Below are positions 43,827 through 50,752 of a stretch of DNA of 64,000 nt, piece by piece. The stretch comes from Bacteroidales bacterium. Lineage in GTDB: Bacteria > Bacteroidota > Bacteroidia > Bacteroidales > GCA-2748055. The stretch covers positions 1-64,000 of the forward strand of contig JARGFP010000019.1 of NCBI GenBank assembly GCA_029210585.1. Direction: 5' to 3'. The position numbers and the translations under genes are program-made. Positions within the stretch are counted from its first letter, which is position 1. The number at the start of each line of letters is the position of its first letter. The notes beneath the pieces were generated by a model. The model made no database searches. It was not told the DNA's origin and saw nothing but the letters and a program-made list of their open reading frames with translations.

Positions 43827-45866
43827 ATGCAGCTCAAAATCCTCAGGATCATCCTGCTTACCGGACTGTTTCTGATGCCACCGGTTATATATGCACAAAA
43901 TGATCCCGTGGAATCACCCGATTCCCTTTTAGCGTTGAGAGGTGGCACCACTGGTATGGAACGGGCCATGGCCGATCTGTCGATTGCCCAGTATTATTTC
44001 CAGAAAGATGACGATTCGCTGATGCATTATGTTGCCCTGCTGGAAGAACATATCGCTGAGGATTATAATGCACGGATCGACGCGTTTATAAGGAAATATA
44101 AAGGGTACAAGGCGTACCGCGACCTTGATGTGGAGCGGTCCATGGAATTTACACGCGAGGCAATGGTACTCTTCCGGCAGGTCCTGGATTTCAAGGAGAT
44201 GGGCTGGATTTCCATGAGACTCGGCACGAATTATTACCGGCTGGGTGATTTTGTTCCCGCAACCGAACATTACCTCCAGGGACTTGCTTTTTTTGAGCAG
44301 GTGGATCATCAGCGGGGAATTGGCACGGCTTACAACAACCTGGGGCGGGTCAGCTATGAAGCCGGTGACAGTGATAAGGCACGTAAATATTTTGCAACTT
44401 CCCTTGAAATATTTGAAGAAGCAGGACACAATAAACCTGCCCTGAAAACATATAACAACCTGGGGCTGTTGCTGATGGAGGAAGGCCAGACCAGGGAATC
44501 CCTACGGCATCTGTTTATGGCCGCCGAAGGATTCAAAAAAGACAATGACCTGAGGAGGCTCGCGCTGGTGTATGGAAACATTGCCAATGGATATGACCAG
44601 TTGCAATCAATGGATTCAGCCATGTTATTCAGCCGGAAGGCACTGGCGCTCTCAACGCAGCAGCAGGATGAGATGGGCATGGTACCGGGACTGATTAACC
44701 TTGGGTATTTCCTGCGCCTGGAACAGCGGTACGACTCCAGCCTGGCATGTTTTGACAGGGCGCTCGAGATGGCAAAGGAAAAGAAGCTGTCTGCCTACGA
44801 GGAACAGGTGTATCTTGAATTATCGGATCTGTTTGCCGATATGGAAGATTACCAGTCTGCCTACAGGTACCATATCCTTCGTGACTCGGTGAATAATGTT
44901 ATCCGTGATGAGAAATCGCAACGCAGGATCGATGAGATGTTGTTCAGTTACAACCAGCGGAGCAGGGACAATGAACTGCTGAAACTTCGGGAAGACCAGG
45001 AAATACAGGCAAGGTTAAACCTGATCTTATTGCTGACCATCATTCTTACATTTGTCGTGGTCATTATCCTGATCACCGGGTACCGCAGGAACAGGCATCA
45101 AAAGCAACTTCTTGAGCAGAAAAATATCCTCCTGGAGGAAATCAATAACCGGCTTGAGGAATCTGAAAACGAACTAAAGGTTCGTAACAACGAGCAGAGC
45201 AAGTTGTTTTCCATCGTTGCGCATGATCTGCGCAATCCCATTTCTGCGGTGAGTGGATTTGCGGAGCTGATCGGCGAGAAATATGATGAGCTTGATGATG
45301 AAACCCGCAAGGAATATATCGAGCAAATCAGCCTGGGAGCTTTCCGGACGCTCTCGCTCCTGGAAAATTTATTGCTCTGGGCAAGGTCCCAGATGGACCT
45401 GGTAAAGGTAAAAAAGGAAGATTCTTCTGTGAAAGAGTTGGTAGACACCTGCACCCAACACATGATGAGTGCCGTGGAAAAAAAGAATCTTATCCTGACC
45501 TTCGATATCCGGGAAGATTTTACGTTGCACGTGGACCGTGAAATGATCAAGGCTGTGCTCAGGAACCTTATCGCCAATGCCATTAAATTCAGTTTCCCCG
45601 GGCGTGAGATCATTATCAGCACCTTTATCGACGGAACGGACCATTGTATTGCCATAAAGGACCATGGCACGGGAATCTCCCCTGAAGTGAAAGCATCCTT
45701 TTCCTCAAACGGATTCATTACATCCACAGAAGGAACTGCAAAAGAAACCGGGTCGGGTCTGGGCCTGATGATATCAAAGGATTATACCGAAAGGAATGGC
45801 GGAACGCTTAAGGTCGAAAGCGATCCCGGGAAAGGATCAGTATTCACGATTTGTTTCCCGGTATAA
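43827..45866 (+). CDS. TPR-containing sensor histidine kinase
   Basis: This 679-residue protein has a signal peptide (ending VIYAQ), about six or seven periplasmic tetratricopeptide repeats (for example AYNNLGRVSYEAGDSDKARK), one transmembrane helix (about 391-414), a coiled-coil, and a HisKA/HATPase kinase: phosphoacceptor His 466 in SIVAHDLRNPISAVSG, NLIANAIKFS (N box), GTGISPE and GSGLGLMI. This hybrid layout is common in Bacteroidota. No response regulator is adjacent, so the partner is elsewhere. Confidence 0.93.
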   Translation: MQLKILRIILLTGLFLMPPVIYAQNDPVESPDSLLALRGGTTGMERAMADLSIAQYYFQKDDDSLMHYVALLEEHIAEDYNARIDAFIRKYKGYKAYRDLDVERSMEFTREAMVLFRQVLDFKEMGWISMRLGTNYYRLGDFVPATEHYLQGLAFFEQVDHQRGIGTAYNNLGRVSYEAGDSDKARKYFATSLEIFEEAGHNKPALKTYNNLGLLLMEEGQTRESLRHLFMAAEGFKKDNDLRRLALVYGNIANGYDQLQSMDSAMLFSRKALALSTQQQDEMGMVPGLINLGYFLRLEQRYDSSLACFDRALEMAKEKKLSAYEEQVYLELSDLFADMEDYQSAYRYHILRDSVNNVIRDEKSQRRIDEMLFSYNQRSRDNELLKLREDQEIQARLNLILLLTIILTFVVVIILITGYRRNRHQKQLLEQKNILLEEINNRLEESENELKVRNNEQSKLFSIVAHDLRNPISAVSGFAELIGEKYDELDDETRKEYIEQISLGAFRTLSLLENLLLWARSQMDLVKVKKEDSSVKELVDTCTQHMMSAVEKKNLILTFDIREDFTLHVDREMIKAVLRNLIANAIKFSFPGREIIISTFIDGTDHCIAIKDHGTGISPEVKASFSSNGFITSTEGTAKETGSGLGLMISKDYTERNGGTLKVESDPGKGSVFTICFPV

Positions 45867-45911
45867 GGAGCCACGCTTCTTTGCCTGGCACTGATTGCCC
45901 TGCCCACCAAC

Positions 45912-46544
45912 TCATTTCAGTTTATCCTCAAATACTTTTTTGAATTTTTCTACTTTGGGCTGGATCACGATCCGGCAATATCCCTGGTTGGGGTTGTTTT
46001 CGAAATATTCCTGGTGATATGCTTCCGCAGGGTAAAAATTACTGAATTCAGTTACTTCCGTGACGATCGGGTTATTCCAGATGCCTTCCCTGTCAAGTGC
46101 ATCGATGATCTCCTCAGCTGCTTTGCGCTGCGCCTCCGAATGGTAAAAGATTGCAGACCTGTACTGTGTCCCCACATCTGCACCCTGCCTGTTCAGCGTT
46201 GTAGGATCATGGGTTTTGAAAAATATTTCAAGTAATTCGATATAGGTGATCACATCAGGATCGCAGGTGAGCTGGATTGCCTCAGCATGACCGGTCCTGC
46301 CCTGGGTCACCTCCCGGTAGGACGGATTGATTACATGTCCGCCGGAATAACCTGACGTTACCGATTTTACGCCCTTTACCTGGTCAAAGATCGCTTCTGT
46401 ACACCAGAAACATCCACCTGCAAAGGTTGCCAGTTCTTCGTTATTATTCATTGTGTATTGATTTTCTCTCTTATAGTTTTCTGCCCACACCACCATTCCG
46501 GTCAGAAAGAATAACAGTGACAGGATTACACCTGCTTGTCTCAT
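45912..46544 (-). CDS. msrA: Peptide methionine sulfoxide reductase A, exported form
   Basis: This 210-residue protein carries a hydrophobic N-terminal signal (about 5-21) before the MsrA domain, with the catalytic motif GGCFWC (Cys 45 and Cys 48), GYSGGHVINP and the EVTQGRTGHAEAIQL segment. It reduces the S-epimer of methionine sulfoxide, here most likely in the periplasm. An alternative start at residue 32 would make it cytoplasmic. It is divergent from the AmmeMemoRadiSam triad, 84 bp apart. Confidence 0.95.
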   Translation of the reverse strand: MRQAGVILSLLFFLTGMVVWAENYKRENQYTMNNNEELATFAGGCFWCTEAIFDQVKGVKSVTSGYSGGHVINPSYREVTQGRTGHAEAIQLTCDPDVITYIELLEIFFKTHDPTTLNRQGADVGTQYRSAIFYHSEAQRKAAEEIIDALDREGIWNNPIVTEVTEFSNFYPAEAYHQEYFENNPNQGYCRIVIQPKVEKFKKVFEDKLK

Positions 46545-46628
46545 CTGCTTCGTGTTTTAAATGTAAACAACCAGGATTTACTTATTGTTTGGGCCGGATA
46601 CGTTAAAAAATGTTGTAACTTACTGCGT

Positions 46629-47639
46629 ATGCACGAAGCCAGTTTCTACATCGGGATCCCGGGGAACAAGGCAAAATGCACGCTTTGCCCCCATGAATGT
46701 ATTATTCAGGAAGGAAAACAGGGAATCTGCAAGGTCAGAAGCTTCAGAAATGAAAAACTGATCAGTGATACTTACGGACGCTTGTCGGCCATTGCGGCCG
46801 ACCCTGTTGAAAAAAAACCACTGTACCACTTCTACCCGGGTAAAAGCATTCTTTCGCTTGGCTCCATCGGCTGCAACATGCACTGCCGGCATTGTCAGAA
46901 TGAAGATATTTCCCAGTGCATCGGGATCACACCCGCATCGCTCAAAAGTTATTCTACAGAGGATATCATGCACAGGGCAGCTGCATCCGGCACCGACCTG
47001 GTGGCCTTCACGTATAATGAGCCTGTGGTAAATTATGAATTCATGCTGGATACAGCCAGGGCCATGCATGCAGCCGGGAGAGCATGTGTGCTGGTTTCCA
47101 ACGGGTATATCATGCCGGAACCTCTCGGGGCCCTGCTTCCTTATATTTCAGCCTGCAACATCGACCTGAAGGCATTTGACGCTGCTTTCTACAGGAAGGT
47201 TGCCGGGGCAAGGCTTGCCCCGGTGCTCCGTTCCATGGAGATGATTCACCAGGCCGGAAAGCACATGGAGGTCACCTTTCTTGTAATTCCGGGCATGAAT
47301 GATGACCGGGAATTGTTCAGAAAAATGAGCATGTACCTGGCCGAAAAATTTGGTAAAAGCCAGGTCTTGCACCTTTCCAGGTATTTTCCGCATTACAAAA
47401 TGCGGCTTCCTGCGACATCAATGGAAACAATGGAAGCACTTGTGTCCATTGCAAGGGAATACCTGGAGTTCGTATACCCGGGAAATACAGGTACTGCAAT
47501 GGACTCCAACACCTATTGTCCTTCATGTGGAAATCTCCTGATCGGCCGCAACCATTACATGGTCACCATTCCCGGTATCCGGTACGGAAGATGTCAACAA
47601 TGTGAACAACAGGTCCACGGAAAATTCAGTAACCAATGA
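46629..47639 (+). CDS. amrS: AmmeMemoRadiSam system radical SAM enzyme
   Basis: From ATG 46629 the protein has 336 residues. N-terminal Cys 17, 20, 24 and 34 resemble a metal-binding cap, followed by the radical SAM motif CNMHCRHC (Cys 82, 86, 89) and a C-terminal zinc-ribbon-like pair (CPSC, CQQC). The layout resembles pyruvate formate-lyase activating enzymes, but the neighbours identify it as the radical SAM member of the AmmeMemoRadiSam system. The substrate is unknown. It overlaps the Memo gene by four bases. Confidence 0.93.
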   Translation: MHEASFYIGIPGNKAKCTLCPHECIIQEGKQGICKVRSFRNEKLISDTYGRLSAIAADPVEKKPLYHFYPGKSILSLGSIGCNMHCRHCQNEDISQCIGITPASLKSYSTEDIMHRAAASGTDLVAFTYNEPVVNYEFMLDTARAMHAAGRACVLVSNGYIMPEPLGALLPYISACNIDLKAFDAAFYRKVAGARLAPVLRSMEMIHQAGKHMEVTFLVIPGMNDDRELFRKMSMYLAEKFGKSQVLHLSRYFPHYKMRLPATSMETMEALVSIAREYLEFVYPGNTGTAMDSNTYCPSCGNLLIGRNHYMVTIPGIRYGRCQQCEQQVHGKFSNQ

Positions 47640-48466
47640 TTAAAGAAGCATCAGTAGAAGGCAGATTCTATCCCTATGGGAAAGATACCATCTTTCAACA
47701 GATTTCAGAAATGGAAGGTAAGGCAAGATACCCCGACCATGAGGGTGATTATCACCGTACCATAGGCGCAGTTGTTCCCCATGCGGGACATGTGTACAGT
47801 GGATACCAGACGATTCCGTTTTTCAGGCTGCTGCGTAAAAGGGAGGAATGGCCGGAAACATTCGTCATTCTTCATCCCAACCACACGGGAACCGGTCCGG
47901 AAATCGCACTTGATCCCCACGAAGGCTGGAAGAATTCAGCAGGGACAGTACCTCTCGATCATGCATTTGGAGCCTCCCTCTCCTATCCGTCAGATGCCAG
48001 TGCACACCGGCATGAACATTCAGCAGAAGTGATCATACCCTACCTGCAATATTTTTTTGAGAACCATAACTTCCGGATACTGCCGGTATGTATGAAGCGA
48101 CAAACAAGTGAGCAGGCGGAAGAACTCGCGGAGCGGCTGATCAGTGCGCAAAGGCAGCATCAGCGCAATATCATGGTCATTGCTTCCAGTGATTTTTCCC
48201 ACTTTGTTGCTCCCGATAAAGGAGCCCGGAACGACCAGATGGTGCTGGACCAGGTGGAAACAAGGGACACCAGTGCCGTCGAGGATACCGTGGTCAGTAA
48301 CAACATCTCCGTGTGCGGGTATGGACCCATCATGACGCTGATGGCCTATTCCGGAATGATCAGCAAGGAGTACTGCACCTCCATTCTTGCCCGTGGGCAT
48401 TCCGGGGAGGTGTACCCTTCCAGGGAAGTGGTGGATTATATTTCAATACTGTTTTACAGTGAATGA
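47636..48466 (+). CDS. amrB: AmmeMemoRadiSam system protein B (Memo homologue)
   Basis: This 276-residue protein has GAVVPHAGHVYSGYQT at its start, then PNHTGTG, an SSDFSHFVA segment and GYGPIMTLM: the conserved His, Asp and Cys positions of the Memo fold, which is related to non-heme iron dioxygenases. Memo is conserved from bacteria to humans, but its enzymatic role is uncertain. The start lies inside the stop of the radical SAM gene (ATGA), and the AMMECR1 gene follows after 4 bp, so all three are translationally linked. Confidence 0.94.
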   Translation: MIKEASVEGRFYPYGKDTIFQQISEMEGKARYPDHEGDYHRTIGAVVPHAGHVYSGYQTIPFFRLLRKREEWPETFVILHPNHTGTGPEIALDPHEGWKNSAGTVPLDHAFGASLSYPSDASAHRHEHSAEVIIPYLQYFFENHNFRILPVCMKRQTSEQAEELAERLISAQRQHQRNIMVIASSDFSHFVAPDKGARNDQMVLDQVETRDTSAVEDTVVSNNISVCGYGPIMTLMAYSGMISKEYCTSILARGHSGEVYPSREVVDYISILFYSE

Positions 48467-48470
48467 CCCC

Positions 48471-49016
48471 ATGGTATTTACAAAGGATCAGGAACATACG
48501 CTGATGAGCATTGCCGAATGGGCAATACATGACCATCTGTCGACCGGCAAACGGCATCCTCTTCCGGAAACATTCCTGGTCAACGGACTGCTGTCGGAAC
48601 AGATGGGTGCATTTGTATCAGTTTATGTGGGCAGAAAGCTCAGGGGATGCATCGGAACCTTTTCAGAAACAGCGCCCCTGTTTGAAAATGTCTGGCAAAT
48701 GGCCATCCAGGCAGCAACAAAAGATCACAGGTTCAAACCGCTGACAATAAAGGACATTGACCGGATGCAGATTGAAATTTCGATATTGTCCAGGCGCCAG
48801 CGCATCCGGGGTCCTGAGGATATAGAAATCGGGAAGCATGGGATATACCTGATTAATGGGTACCGGCGTGCCACGCTCCTGCCACAGGTGGCTGTGAAGC
48901 ACAATTATTCACCGGTTGAGTTCCTTGAATGCTGCGCTGAAAACAAACTCGGGCTGGACAGGGACAGCTGGAAGGAAGCGGAGTTGTATGTATACGAGGC
49001 GGTGATTATTGGATGA
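48471..49016 (+). CDS. amrA: AmmeMemoRadiSam system protein A (AMMECR1 homologue)
   Basis: This 181-residue protein matches AMMECR1: FVSVYVGRKLRGCIGTFSE near the middle, IEISILSRRQRI and GIYLINGYRRATLLPQVAV further on. The conserved LRGCIG hexapeptide is present. Function in bacteria is unknown; human AMMECR1 is linked to a developmental syndrome. It completes the triad, starting 4 bp after the Memo stop. Confidence 0.95.
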   Translation: MVFTKDQEHTLMSIAEWAIHDHLSTGKRHPLPETFLVNGLLSEQMGAFVSVYVGRKLRGCIGTFSETAPLFENVWQMAIQAATKDHRFKPLTIKDIDRMQIEISILSRRQRIRGPEDIEIGKHGIYLINGYRRATLLPQVAVKHNYSPVEFLECCAENKLGLDRDSWKEAELYVYEAVIIG

Positions 49017-49075
49017 ATACTTTTGTTATTGAGCAGGTAACACTGGTAAAGATGGAAGAATTAACAACATTTTTC

Positions 49076-49105
49076 TTTGATGTTTAAATTGAATTGTTAT
49101 ATTTG
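49076..49105 (+). promoter_or_regulatory. Bacteroidota-type promoter of a possible small RNA
   Basis: TTTG (49076-49079) and TATATTTG (49098-49105) are separated by 18 bp, close to the ideal 19, just after the AMMECR1 stop. Transcription would start near 49112, and the only thing downstream before a terminator is a leader of about 100 nt. Confidence 0.6.
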
Positions 49106-49111
49106 TTGCCG

Positions 49112-49212
49112 TTAGTGTGAAGAAAAAACAGTGTTTTAACGATACATACTAACCCTGAAACTACCATTTATATAAGGGAATCCTGTCTTATGCGTAAGGC
49201 AGGATTTTTTTT
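49112..49212 (+). ncRNA. Candidate small RNA or attenuated leader of the sugar transporter
   Basis: The region from the predicted start (about 49112) to a strong terminator contains no reading frame longer than a few codons, has a CCCT/AGGG pair (about 49153-49178), and ends in the hairpin. It could be a trans-acting RNA, a cis leader upstream of the sugar/H+ symporter gene, or simply the 3' end of the triad transcript. No Rfam family is recognised. Confidence 0.4.
49181..49212 (+). terminator. Rho-independent terminator upstream of the sugar transporter
   Basis: Arms tcctgtctta (49181-49190) and taaggcagga (49195-49204) form a 10-bp stem (one G-U pair) around tgcg, followed by eight T (49205-49212). 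It is 165 bp after the triad and 95 bp before the transporter start. Confidence 0.9.
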
Positions 49213-49306
49213 ATTTCCTGTTTGGACTCAAATTATGAACATTTTGCACTGACATTTAACAGAAGTTGGTATATTCAAAAATTTTAAACCAAAATTCTAA
49301 AAAATT

Positions 49307-50752
49307 ATGGCAAAGCAGGAAGTTAAACAGAACAAAGGACTTGTTATTGTAATAGCATCCATTGCCGCTTTAGGCGGATTGTTATTTGGATTTGATACCG
49401 GTGTTATTTCCGGTGCCATACCATTTTTGCAGGATTATTTTGAACTAACCGACAGCCAGGTTGAAAACGTCACAGCACTTGGTCTTATCGGTGCAGTGGT
49501 CGGGGCGCTTGTTACAGGCAGGCTGACAGATTTTCTTGGCCGCAGGAAAGTCATTCTCGGCTCGGCTTTTGTATTCGCCACGGGAGCTATCTGGACGGGA
49601 TTCGCGCCAACTGTCACCCAATTAATGATTTCAAGGTTTTACCTTGGTCTTGCCATCGGTGTATCCTCTTTTGCTGTGCCATTGTATATTTCCGAGATCT
49701 CTCCCACAAAGATCCGTGGCAGGTTGGTTTCTATGTTCCAGTTGCTGATCACTGTCGGCATCCTGGCGGCCTATCTCAGTGACAGGGCATTGGCAGATAA
49801 CAGCAATCCTGAATCGTGGAGACCCATGCTTTGGGTGGGTGTATTCCCTGCTATCATTCTGTTCGTGGGAATGTTTTTTCTGCCGGATACGCCTCGCTGG
49901 CTGATGAGCAAAGGCCGGGAAAAAGAGAGCCGCAGGATCCTGGCGAAAATTGAATTCCCCGAATTCATTGATAAATCCATCTCGGAAATGAAGCAACAGA
50001 TTGCGCTTGAGGAAATGCAGGCCGGATGGAGAGAGATTTTCAAGCCCTGGCTCCGCAATGCACTTATCATTGCTGTCGGGATCATGTTTTTCCAGCAGTT
50101 TGTAGGGATCAACACCGTTATTTACTATAGTCCGAAAATTTTCCTCGCTGCAGGGTTTGAGGGAAATGAAGCAGCAATTGCAGCATCCGTGATCGTTGGC
50201 GTTGTCAACGTTCTCTTTACCATCGTATCCCTGTTCGTTATCGACCGCCTGGGAAGAAGGAAGTTGTTTTTTATCGGGGTTTCGGGCATTACGATTGCAC
50301 TGATCTCCATGGGTCTTGGGTTCATGATTGAAGGAGTTTCAAAATGGTTCCTCGTTACCTCCATGCTGGTATACATTGCTTTCTTTGCTATCAGTCTTGG
50401 CCCATTGGGCTGGCTGATCATCACCGAGGTCTTCCCGACAAGGGTGCGCGGCCTTGGTTCTTCCATCGGTTCCCTTTCCAACTGGGGATTCAATACCCTC
50501 GTCGTATGGACATTCTTTAAGATGGCAAGTGCCTTTGGAAATGCCAAAGATGTTGTTGTTCCTGAAGGTTCGGATCTTTCCTCAGTGTGCCCGACATGCG
50601 TGGGAAGCGTTTTCTGGGTTTTCGCCGCCATTGCATTGATTGGTTTGGTATGGGGATATTTCTTTATTCCGGAAACGAAGAATGTTTCACTCGAAGAGAT
50701 CGAAGCCCATTGGCGCGACGGAAAAAAACCACGCGATCTGAAAGCAGGATAA
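49307..50752 (+). CDS. MFS sugar porter (D-xylose/galactose:H+ symporter type)
   Basis: This 481-residue protein has twelve hydrophobic helices, GGLLFGFDTGVISGAI in helix 1, GRLTDFLGRRK in loop 2-3, DTPRWLMSKGR at the 6-7 border, the IDRLGRRKLFF second signature, and PETKNVSLEEIE at the C-terminal end of helix 12. This combination defines the sugar porter family. The substrate is a monosaccharide; which one cannot be read. It stands alone, with a strong terminator following. Confidence 0.94.
   Translation: MAKQEVKQNKGLVIVIASIAALGGLLFGFDTGVISGAIPFLQDYFELTDSQVENVTALGLIGAVVGALVTGRLTDFLGRRKVILGSAFVFATGAIWTGFAPTVTQLMISRFYLGLAIGVSSFAVPLYISEISPTKIRGRLVSMFQLLITVGILAAYLSDRALADNSNPESWRPMLWVGVFPAIILFVGMFFLPDTPRWLMSKGREKESRRILAKIEFPEFIDKSISEMKQQIALEEMQAGWREIFKPWLRNALIIAVGIMFFQQFVGINTVIYYSPKIFLAAGFEGNEAAIAASVIVGVVNVLFTIVSLFVIDRLGRRKLFFIGVSGITIALISMGLGFMIEGVSKWFLVTSMLVYIAFFAISLGPLGWLIITEVFPTRVRGLGSSIGSLSNWGFNTLVVWTFFKMASAFGNAKDVVVPEGSDLSSVCPTCVGSVFWVFAAIALIGLVWGYFFIPETKNVSLEEIEAHWRDGKKPRDLKAG

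Follow-up and report, generated by a model that had tools for sequence, protein, structure and literature searches.

The window analysed here is a stretch of 64,000 nucleotides from contig JARGFP010000019.1 of a Bacteroidales genome (assembly GCA_029210585.1), and positions 46629-49016 of it hold three genes that almost certainly encode the AmmeMemoRadiSam proteins AmrS, AmrB and AmrA, that is, a radical S-adenosylmethionine (SAM) enzyme, a Memo-family protein and an AMMECR1-family protein. The triad is of a known kind and is one more intact copy of a widespread set; the operon is complete, appears cytoplasmic and is probably active. The initial annotation of this locus is supported overall. 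Comparison with relatives points beyond it to a proposal that stands at a roughly even chance: that there are two AmmeMemoRadiSam systems, found side by side in some bacteria that include two relatives from the window's own family. One would be the cytoplasmic set in the order amrS-amrB-amrA, and the other would consist of an extracytoplasmic AmrS, exported by the twin-arginine (Tat) or general secretory (Sec) route with all of its cluster cysteines, together with an exported Memo-AMMECR1 fusion and a membrane protein of 12-16 helices, here called c4. This exported branch matters more than the window triad, because it is a simple claim and names an additional partner protein. If it is true, an extracytoplasmic radical SAM enzyme breaks a general assumption about the superfamily, the substrate is restricted to something found on both sides of the membrane, and intracellular nucleic acid becomes doubtful as the sole substrate.

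AMMECR1 and Memo are conserved into humans and are linked to disease, and the set matters because no reaction has been found for either protein in spite of this. The statement in the initial annotation that the reaction is not established agrees with the open-access literature, in which no assigned reaction for the triad was found. Each paper there that mentions AmmeMemoRadiSam contains a single occurrence of the name, no paper was found that brings together AMMECR1, MEMO1 and radical SAM, and Memo-Ammecr1 systems are, in the available part of one source, cited merely as recently described (PMC7159879). The same literature yielded no paper on an AmrS of the exported type, the literature that pairs radical SAM with twin-arginine being covered in small part, and none that uses phrases such as “periplasmic radical SAM” or “exported radical SAM”.

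The three genes and their conserved residues

All three genes lie on the forward strand and start with ATG at the first coordinate given: amrS at 46629-47639 (336 residues; 305 bits against TIGR04337, cut-off 220), amrB at 47636-48466 (276 residues; 223.9 bits against TIGR04336, cut-off 26, and 146.5 bits against PF01875) and amrA at 48471-49016 (181 residues; 147.4 bits against TIGR04335, cut-off 99, and 148.5 bits against PF01871). The three proteins are thus over the NCBIfam cut-offs in the search of TIGR04335-TIGR04337 that had been proposed for them, and the Pfam models Radical_SAM, Memo and AMMECR1 each exceed their gathering scores. The earlier description of a three-gene triad with four-base coupling is exact in its coordinates, since amrS and amrB overlap by 4 bp (ATGA) and a gap of 4 bp (48467-48470) separates amrB from amrA, although reading of the sequence also offers amrA an in-frame GTG start at 48459 that would give an 8-bp overlap. 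A terminator-like hairpin, identified by its match to the consensus, lies 3' of amrA on the forward strand (49174-49211; 17 pairs followed by a T-rich tail), and is the largest such hairpin within 45800-49400, all others having 5 pairs, as does the small one located inside the operon on the same strand (47127-47139). The overlapping or abutting frames, together with the placing of the large hairpin only 3' of amrA, would favour a single transcript. Set beside the AmmeMemoRadiSam system, the window has the same three clustered proteins and the same conserved residues, and nothing essential differs. The genome as a whole contains one AmrS over the cut-off, one Memo match and one AMMECR1 match, a second AmrS-like match being below the cut-off at 22 bits.

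AmrS has eleven cysteines, arranged in three groups, which are conserved across aligned AmrS. The N-terminal Cys4 motif (C17, C20, C24 and C34; 46677-46730, forward strand; invariant in 50 aligned rows) and the radical SAM CX3CX2C (C82, C86 and C89; 46872-46895, forward strand) are 100% conserved both in 49 AmrS of the exported type described below and in 115 others, while the C-terminal zinc-ribbon-like Cys4 (C297, C300, C322 and C325; 47517-47603, forward strand) is kept in 100% of the former and 96.5-97.4% of the latter. The clusters at the two ends had been described as extra; their presence is confirmed, but both are invariant in sets of 14 and of 50 aligned AmrS, and they are therefore features of the family rather than additions to it. 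The AlphaFold2 model of AmrS has a mean predicted local distance difference test score (pLDDT) of 96.1, and the closest solved fold is that of pyruvate formate-lyase activase (PflA) with SAM and peptide substrate bound (3cb8; Z 26.0, 2.3 Å, 224 residues, 21% identity). NifB follows as the next distinct protein at Z 18.9, and Foldseek too ranks PflA first. The likeness to PflA (PDB 3cb8, 8fo0) comprises CX3CX2C and the radical SAM core fold over AmrS residues from about 46 to 284, residues before about 46 being barely covered by the structural matches; AmrS differs in having two further Cys4 sites and in lacking a glycyl radical enzyme gene linked to it.

The predicted metal ligands of AmrB, which span 47780-48316 on the forward strand, are H49 (47780-47782), H83 (47882-47884) and C227 (48314-48316), and all three are 100% conserved in an alignment of 55 Memo domains from the examined loci. 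They are taken to correspond to H49, H81 and C244, by which iron is bound in human MEMO1 according to PMC11081632. Human MEMO1 (PDB 3bcz, 7kq8) is of the Memo family and its His-His-Cys ligand residues are kept in AmrB, but the two proteins are distant in sequence (phmmer E 0.0015). Human MEMO1 is not known to have a radical SAM partner. In AmrA, Cys60 of the LRGCIG motif (48648-48650, forward strand) is 98% conserved among 56 aligned AMMECR1 domains of the examined loci, and the motif is visible in both of the displayed alignments of AmrA with archaeal AMMECR1 structures. The archaeal proteins MM0484, PH0010 and ST0229 (PDB 1zq7, 1vaj and 1wsc), which belong to the same family as AmrA, were deposited as hypothetical proteins.

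Apparently exported AmrS in relatives and its partners

The comparison with relatives covers 164 AmrS from 80 named loci, 80 fetched regions and the window, counting only matches over 300 bits, a limit that excludes the split match of L096 as well as the second AmrS-like protein at each of the loci L067 and L084. Signals were called by a home-made rule that combines a hydropathy window with a [KR]R motif and is not SignalP. By this rule none of AmrS, AmrB and AmrA of the window has a signal peptide, while the N-termini of the 164 AmrS are Tat-like in 40 cases, Sec-like in nine and neither in 115; all 49 signal-bearing proteins keep the eleven cluster cysteines. Since the motif is RR in 14 of the 40 Tat-like proteins and KR, a weaker Tat motif, in the other 26, the Tat route specifically is less sure than export. 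Clear twin-arginine motifs occur in L087 (RRDFLK), L109 (RRDMLK), L113 (RRDFIK) and L131 (RRAFLK), and the KR type includes the window's family (KRTFLK in L133). The rule makes errors: it misses L124 (RRTFIK), and it labels the Memo-AMMECR1 fusion of L148 as Tat where Sec seems likelier. When a crude form of it is applied to 899 unrelated genes from the same loci, 31 are called Tat-like (11 RR, 20 KR) and 404 Sec-like, as against 39 Tat and 11 Sec calls on 160 AmrS; the Tat calls on AmrS stand out from this background, and the Sec calls alone would not.

The 14 named carriers of the exported type, all of them metagenome assemblies, belong to Omnitrophota, Elusimicrobia, Chloroflexi, Hebobacteria, Desulfobacterales and a few other groups. 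Two relatives in the window's family hold both the cytoplasmic and the exported system; in the window genome the cytoplasmic system alone is present. A sample of 198 genomes from the window's order (the order sample) includes 31 genomes with a Tat-type AmrS in the regions examined, 29 of which, matched by eye to the list of TatC carriers, have TatC; the two that lack it, G249 and G295, are drafts that are 85% and 93% complete. TatC is present in 164 of the 198 genomes and is not discriminating.

The partners also differ between the two types. Within 3.5 kb of the 49 exported-type AmrS there are 27 Memo-AMMECR1 fusions and no separate Memo, as compared with 12 fusions and 20 separate Memo proteins near the 115 others. 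Among 50 pairs in which the N-terminus of the partner is readable, AmrS and Memo match with respect to signal in 43, both proteins having one in 19 and neither in 24, and four further partners with complete N-termini (L133, L135, L139 and L152) each have a hydrophobic leader that matches their AmrS. The second partner, c4, is a membrane protein of about 700-830 residues with 12-16 predicted helices and, in the middle of the protein, a spermidine-synthase-like domain (PF01564 in all five examined). On a profile built from six named loci, which match by construction, 31 of the 49 exported-type AmrS have c4 at a distance of at most 3.5 kb, as does a single one of the 115 others, namely the additional AmrS of a tandem pair in L139 whose other member is of the exported type. 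Either c4 or the fusion is near 37 of the 49; the remaining 12 show neither in the stretch examined. When the order sample was searched at E <= 1e-60 with a profile of 13 proteins, eight of them from genomes of that sample, c4 was found in 46 genomes, 45 of which have AmrS, the exception being G244, which is cut by a contig end; with the eight source genomes removed, 37 of 38 c4 genomes have AmrS. Of the genomes with Tat-type AmrS, 29 of 31 have c4. The window genome has no c4 match at this threshold, and its triad, with no signal on AmrS or Memo by the rule, would lie outside the exported branch.

In L133, L135, L139 and L152 the genes abut one another in the order fusion, c4, amrS. The spermidine-synthase-like domain of c4 retains a glycine-rich stretch and carries a distinctive signature (N372, R373 and T376, invariant in 13 proteins), and the helices that precede it vary in number between proteins on a simple hydropathy count. 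In the two-system proposal, c4 could serve to carry electrons, SAM or a derivative of SAM through the membrane. SAM is not expected outside the cytoplasm, which limits the proposal; an exported-type AmrS might be loaded before export or use another ligand, or its leader might merely act as an anchor. Possible electron routes are a nitroreductase-family protein encoded between the fusion and c4 in L098, whose matches to DUF4405 and cytochrome b561 are weak and fall below the cut-offs, and the product of a DsbD-like gene that recurs at exported-type loci of Omnitrophota and Elusimicrobia (DsbD_2 by Pfam in the one examined).

Tat-like AmrS are found at L133, L135, L139, L148, L151 and L152, and at L087, L098, L109, L113, L115 and L131. 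Most of these loci have a signal-bearing Memo-AMMECR1 fusion and c4 nearby, and L087, L115 and L131 have neither in the stretch examined. Tandem arrays of Tat-type AmrS lie beside c4 in L137 (3952-7775, reverse strand; three copies) and L140 (3953-6423, reverse strand; two copies); neither Memo nor AMMECR1 is present in the stretches examined.

Co-occurrence and the possible reaction

The dependence of the three genes on one another was evaluated in the order sample and in a second sample of 198 genomes from the phylum. The genomes in each are related and not independent, so Fisher tests of co-occurrence and association overstate. In the phylum sample AmrS is over the cut-off in 50 genomes, a Memo match is present in 111 and an AMMECR1 match in 34. 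All 34 AMMECR1 genomes have both AmrS and Memo, 46 of the 50 AmrS genomes have Memo, and AMMECR1 is found in none of the 148 genomes that lack AmrS; AMMECR1 is therefore nested within the AmrS genomes and rarely does without AmrS in this phylum. Of the 90 order-sample genomes with AMMECR1, 84 also contain AmrS (E <= 1e-30); one of the six that lack it is G244, where the contig ends inside the cassette. The spread is patchy: the 49 other phylum-sample genomes over the AmrS cut-off belong to the window's phylum and none of them to its class, and 94 of the 198 genomes of its own order exceed the cut-off. The triad is not obligatory.

The mechanism put forward, tentatively and with somewhat less than an even chance of being correct, is that AmrS performs radical chemistry on a client held by the Memo-AMMECR1 module. 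AmrS would bind a [4Fe-4S] cluster, cleave SAM and pass the 5'-deoxyadenosyl radical to the client, and Memo, with its metal site, and AMMECR1, with its cysteine, would then complete or resolve the reaction that AmrS had started. AmrS, AmrB and AmrA would work as a unit within one compartment, on a substrate that would be a protein or peptide, a lipid or isoprenoid, or glycan-linked, rather than intracellular nucleic acid, and that, given the apparent export of a sister branch, would belong to a class that can be encountered beyond the cytoplasm as well. Support comes from the conserved residues of AmrS, Memo and AMMECR1, the PflA fold, the co-occurrence, the matched signals and the natural Memo-AMMECR1 fusions. 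A related radical-SAM domain has been placed in peptide-processing systems, with peptide modification predicted there (PMC7159879).

Several observations weigh against this mechanism. No substrate or product of AmmeMemoRadiSam is known, and the model of a Memo-AMMECR1 fusion, although its mean pLDDT is 89.7, has a predicted template modelling score (pTM) of 0.59, so that the relative placing of the domains is not confident. AMMECR1 is missing from 16 of the 50 AmrS genomes in the phylum sample, four of which also lack Memo, so that AmrS can persist without its partners, and from 10 of the 94 in the order sample. Conversely, 65 phylum-sample genomes have a Memo-family match without an AmrS over the cut-off, the control genome of Haloferax volcanii has AMMECR1 and no AmrS match, and humans have AMMECR1 and MEMO1 but are not known to have AmrS. 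The signals disagree in seven of the 50 readable pairs (AmrS only in three, partner only in four). The exported types, in addition, largely form one clade, with a minimum of eight changes of which two are forced by supported branches, and the association tests therefore have few independent events; when the AmrS signal was compared with the partner signal, the fusion and c4 by independent-pairs tests, one to two pairs lay on supported branches and no significance was reached.

The evidence must also be weighed against other accounts of what AmrS does. It is somewhat unlikely, but consistent with a PflA fold that is far ahead of other folds, that AmrS is an activase or maturase of the Memo-AMMECR1 module itself and acts on AmrA, for example in the LRGCIG loop, or on AmrB by introducing a radical or by modifying it, as PflA does to pyruvate formate-lyase. 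The nesting of AMMECR1 within genomes that have AmrS and Memo, and the near invariance of LRGCIG, both count in favour of such a role; the four AmrS genomes with neither AmrA nor AmrB and the Haloferax AMMECR1 without an AmrS match count against it, as does the conservation of LRGCIG in human AMMECR1, no AmrS being known in humans. The genomes with AmrS only are tolerated by another account, which is rated as unlikely, in which the three proteins act as enzymes one after another on a single small molecule or lipid, such as an isoprenoid, and do not modify one another. Burroughs et al. are said to have proposed an isoprenoid or nucleobase role in 2019 from gene neighbourhoods. Memo can also be aligned structurally with LigB and other extradiol dioxygenases (PMC11081632). 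What speaks against successive enzymes is that few genes other than Memo and AMMECR1 recur beside cytoplasmic AmrS in the 80 named loci, and those that do are limited to particular lineages. The sole close and repeated neighbour that looks metabolic is a thiL-like gene, presumably thiamine-phosphate-kinase-like, in five Thermoplasmata-type loci.

The fold alone might suggest, finally, that AmrS is the activase of an ordinary glycyl radical enzyme, but this is very improbable and was rejected. AmrS is not a PflA by sequence, yet shares its predicted fold: the triad model is not outscored by pyruvate formate-lyase activase, the possibility that had been raised as an objection, since TIGR02493 gives 56.3 bits (cut-off 231.75) as against the 305 bits of TIGR04337, and other activase models are also far below their cut-offs. 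A DGxGxR motif before CX3CX2C is expected of PflA-type activases, and window AmrS, with no DG pair in its 336 residues, has no such motif. No gene for a glycyl radical enzyme is present in the operon, the genome's single match to Gly_radical (PF01228) being on contig C22 and the window on C27, and all four of the control genomes with AmrS over the cut-off lack a Gly_radical match. The mechanism in which a client is held by the Memo-AMMECR1 module remains the preferred one.

Gene order, neighbours and atypical copies

Contiguous, separate amrS, amrB and amrA in the order seen in the window are found in L134 and L136, which are of the same family and each have an adjacent msrA; other arrangements are amrA-amrS-amrB in L226, Memo-AMMECR1 fusions, and genes that lie apart. 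In the AmrS tree the window protein falls in a supported group of 51 rows (Shimodaira-Hasegawa-like approximate likelihood ratio test, 95), none of which has a signal peptide by the rule, and its closest match by identity among the other rows, at 50%, is L053 from a Cyclobacteriaceae metagenome-assembled genome (MAG). The initial annotation had suggested a test for conserved neighbours. Clustering of 957 called genes from 81 loci shows that Memo and AMMECR1 do recur, but that other clusters present in at least three loci are mostly scattered or confined to one lineage, the thiL-like gene being one that recurs close to AmrS.

The exported methionine sulfoxide reductase noted as divergent from amrS is present as described: msrA (45912-46544, reverse strand; TIGR00401 206 bits, and PF01625) lies outside the triad at a distance of 84 bp from amrS, with a signal peptide apparent by eye. 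In the window's family msrA is beside the cytoplasmic operon in three of three cases (the window, L134 and L136), and msrB (SelR) is beside the exported AmrS in two of two (L133:3569-3952 and L135:5028-5471). Upstream of msrA the window encodes a TPR histidine kinase (43827-45866), and downstream of the operon a sugar MFS transporter (49307-50752).

AmrS occurs in named archaeal loci too. Atypical copies were also seen: near AmrS, an additional AmrS-like protein that scores more weakly and has a long N-terminal extension is encoded in a Methanomassiliicoccales MAG (L067:10053-11612, reverse strand) and a Thermoplasmatota MAG (L084:3656-4984, reverse strand). L213, L214 and L215 have AmrS without a Memo or AMMECR1 match, and no obvious substitute partner is beside it. 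In G106, of the same phylum, a shortened AmrS frame (L217:6283-7110, forward strand) has its third radical-SAM cysteine replaced by Arg; the match holds a stop, there is no adjacent Memo, and the whole resembles a decaying copy. In G375, which has no AmrS match at E <= 1e-30, a fusion with an apparent signal peptide joins a SASA (PF03629) domain, a sialic-acid-type carbohydrate esterase, to Memo and AMMECR1 (L230:2175-4397, reverse strand).

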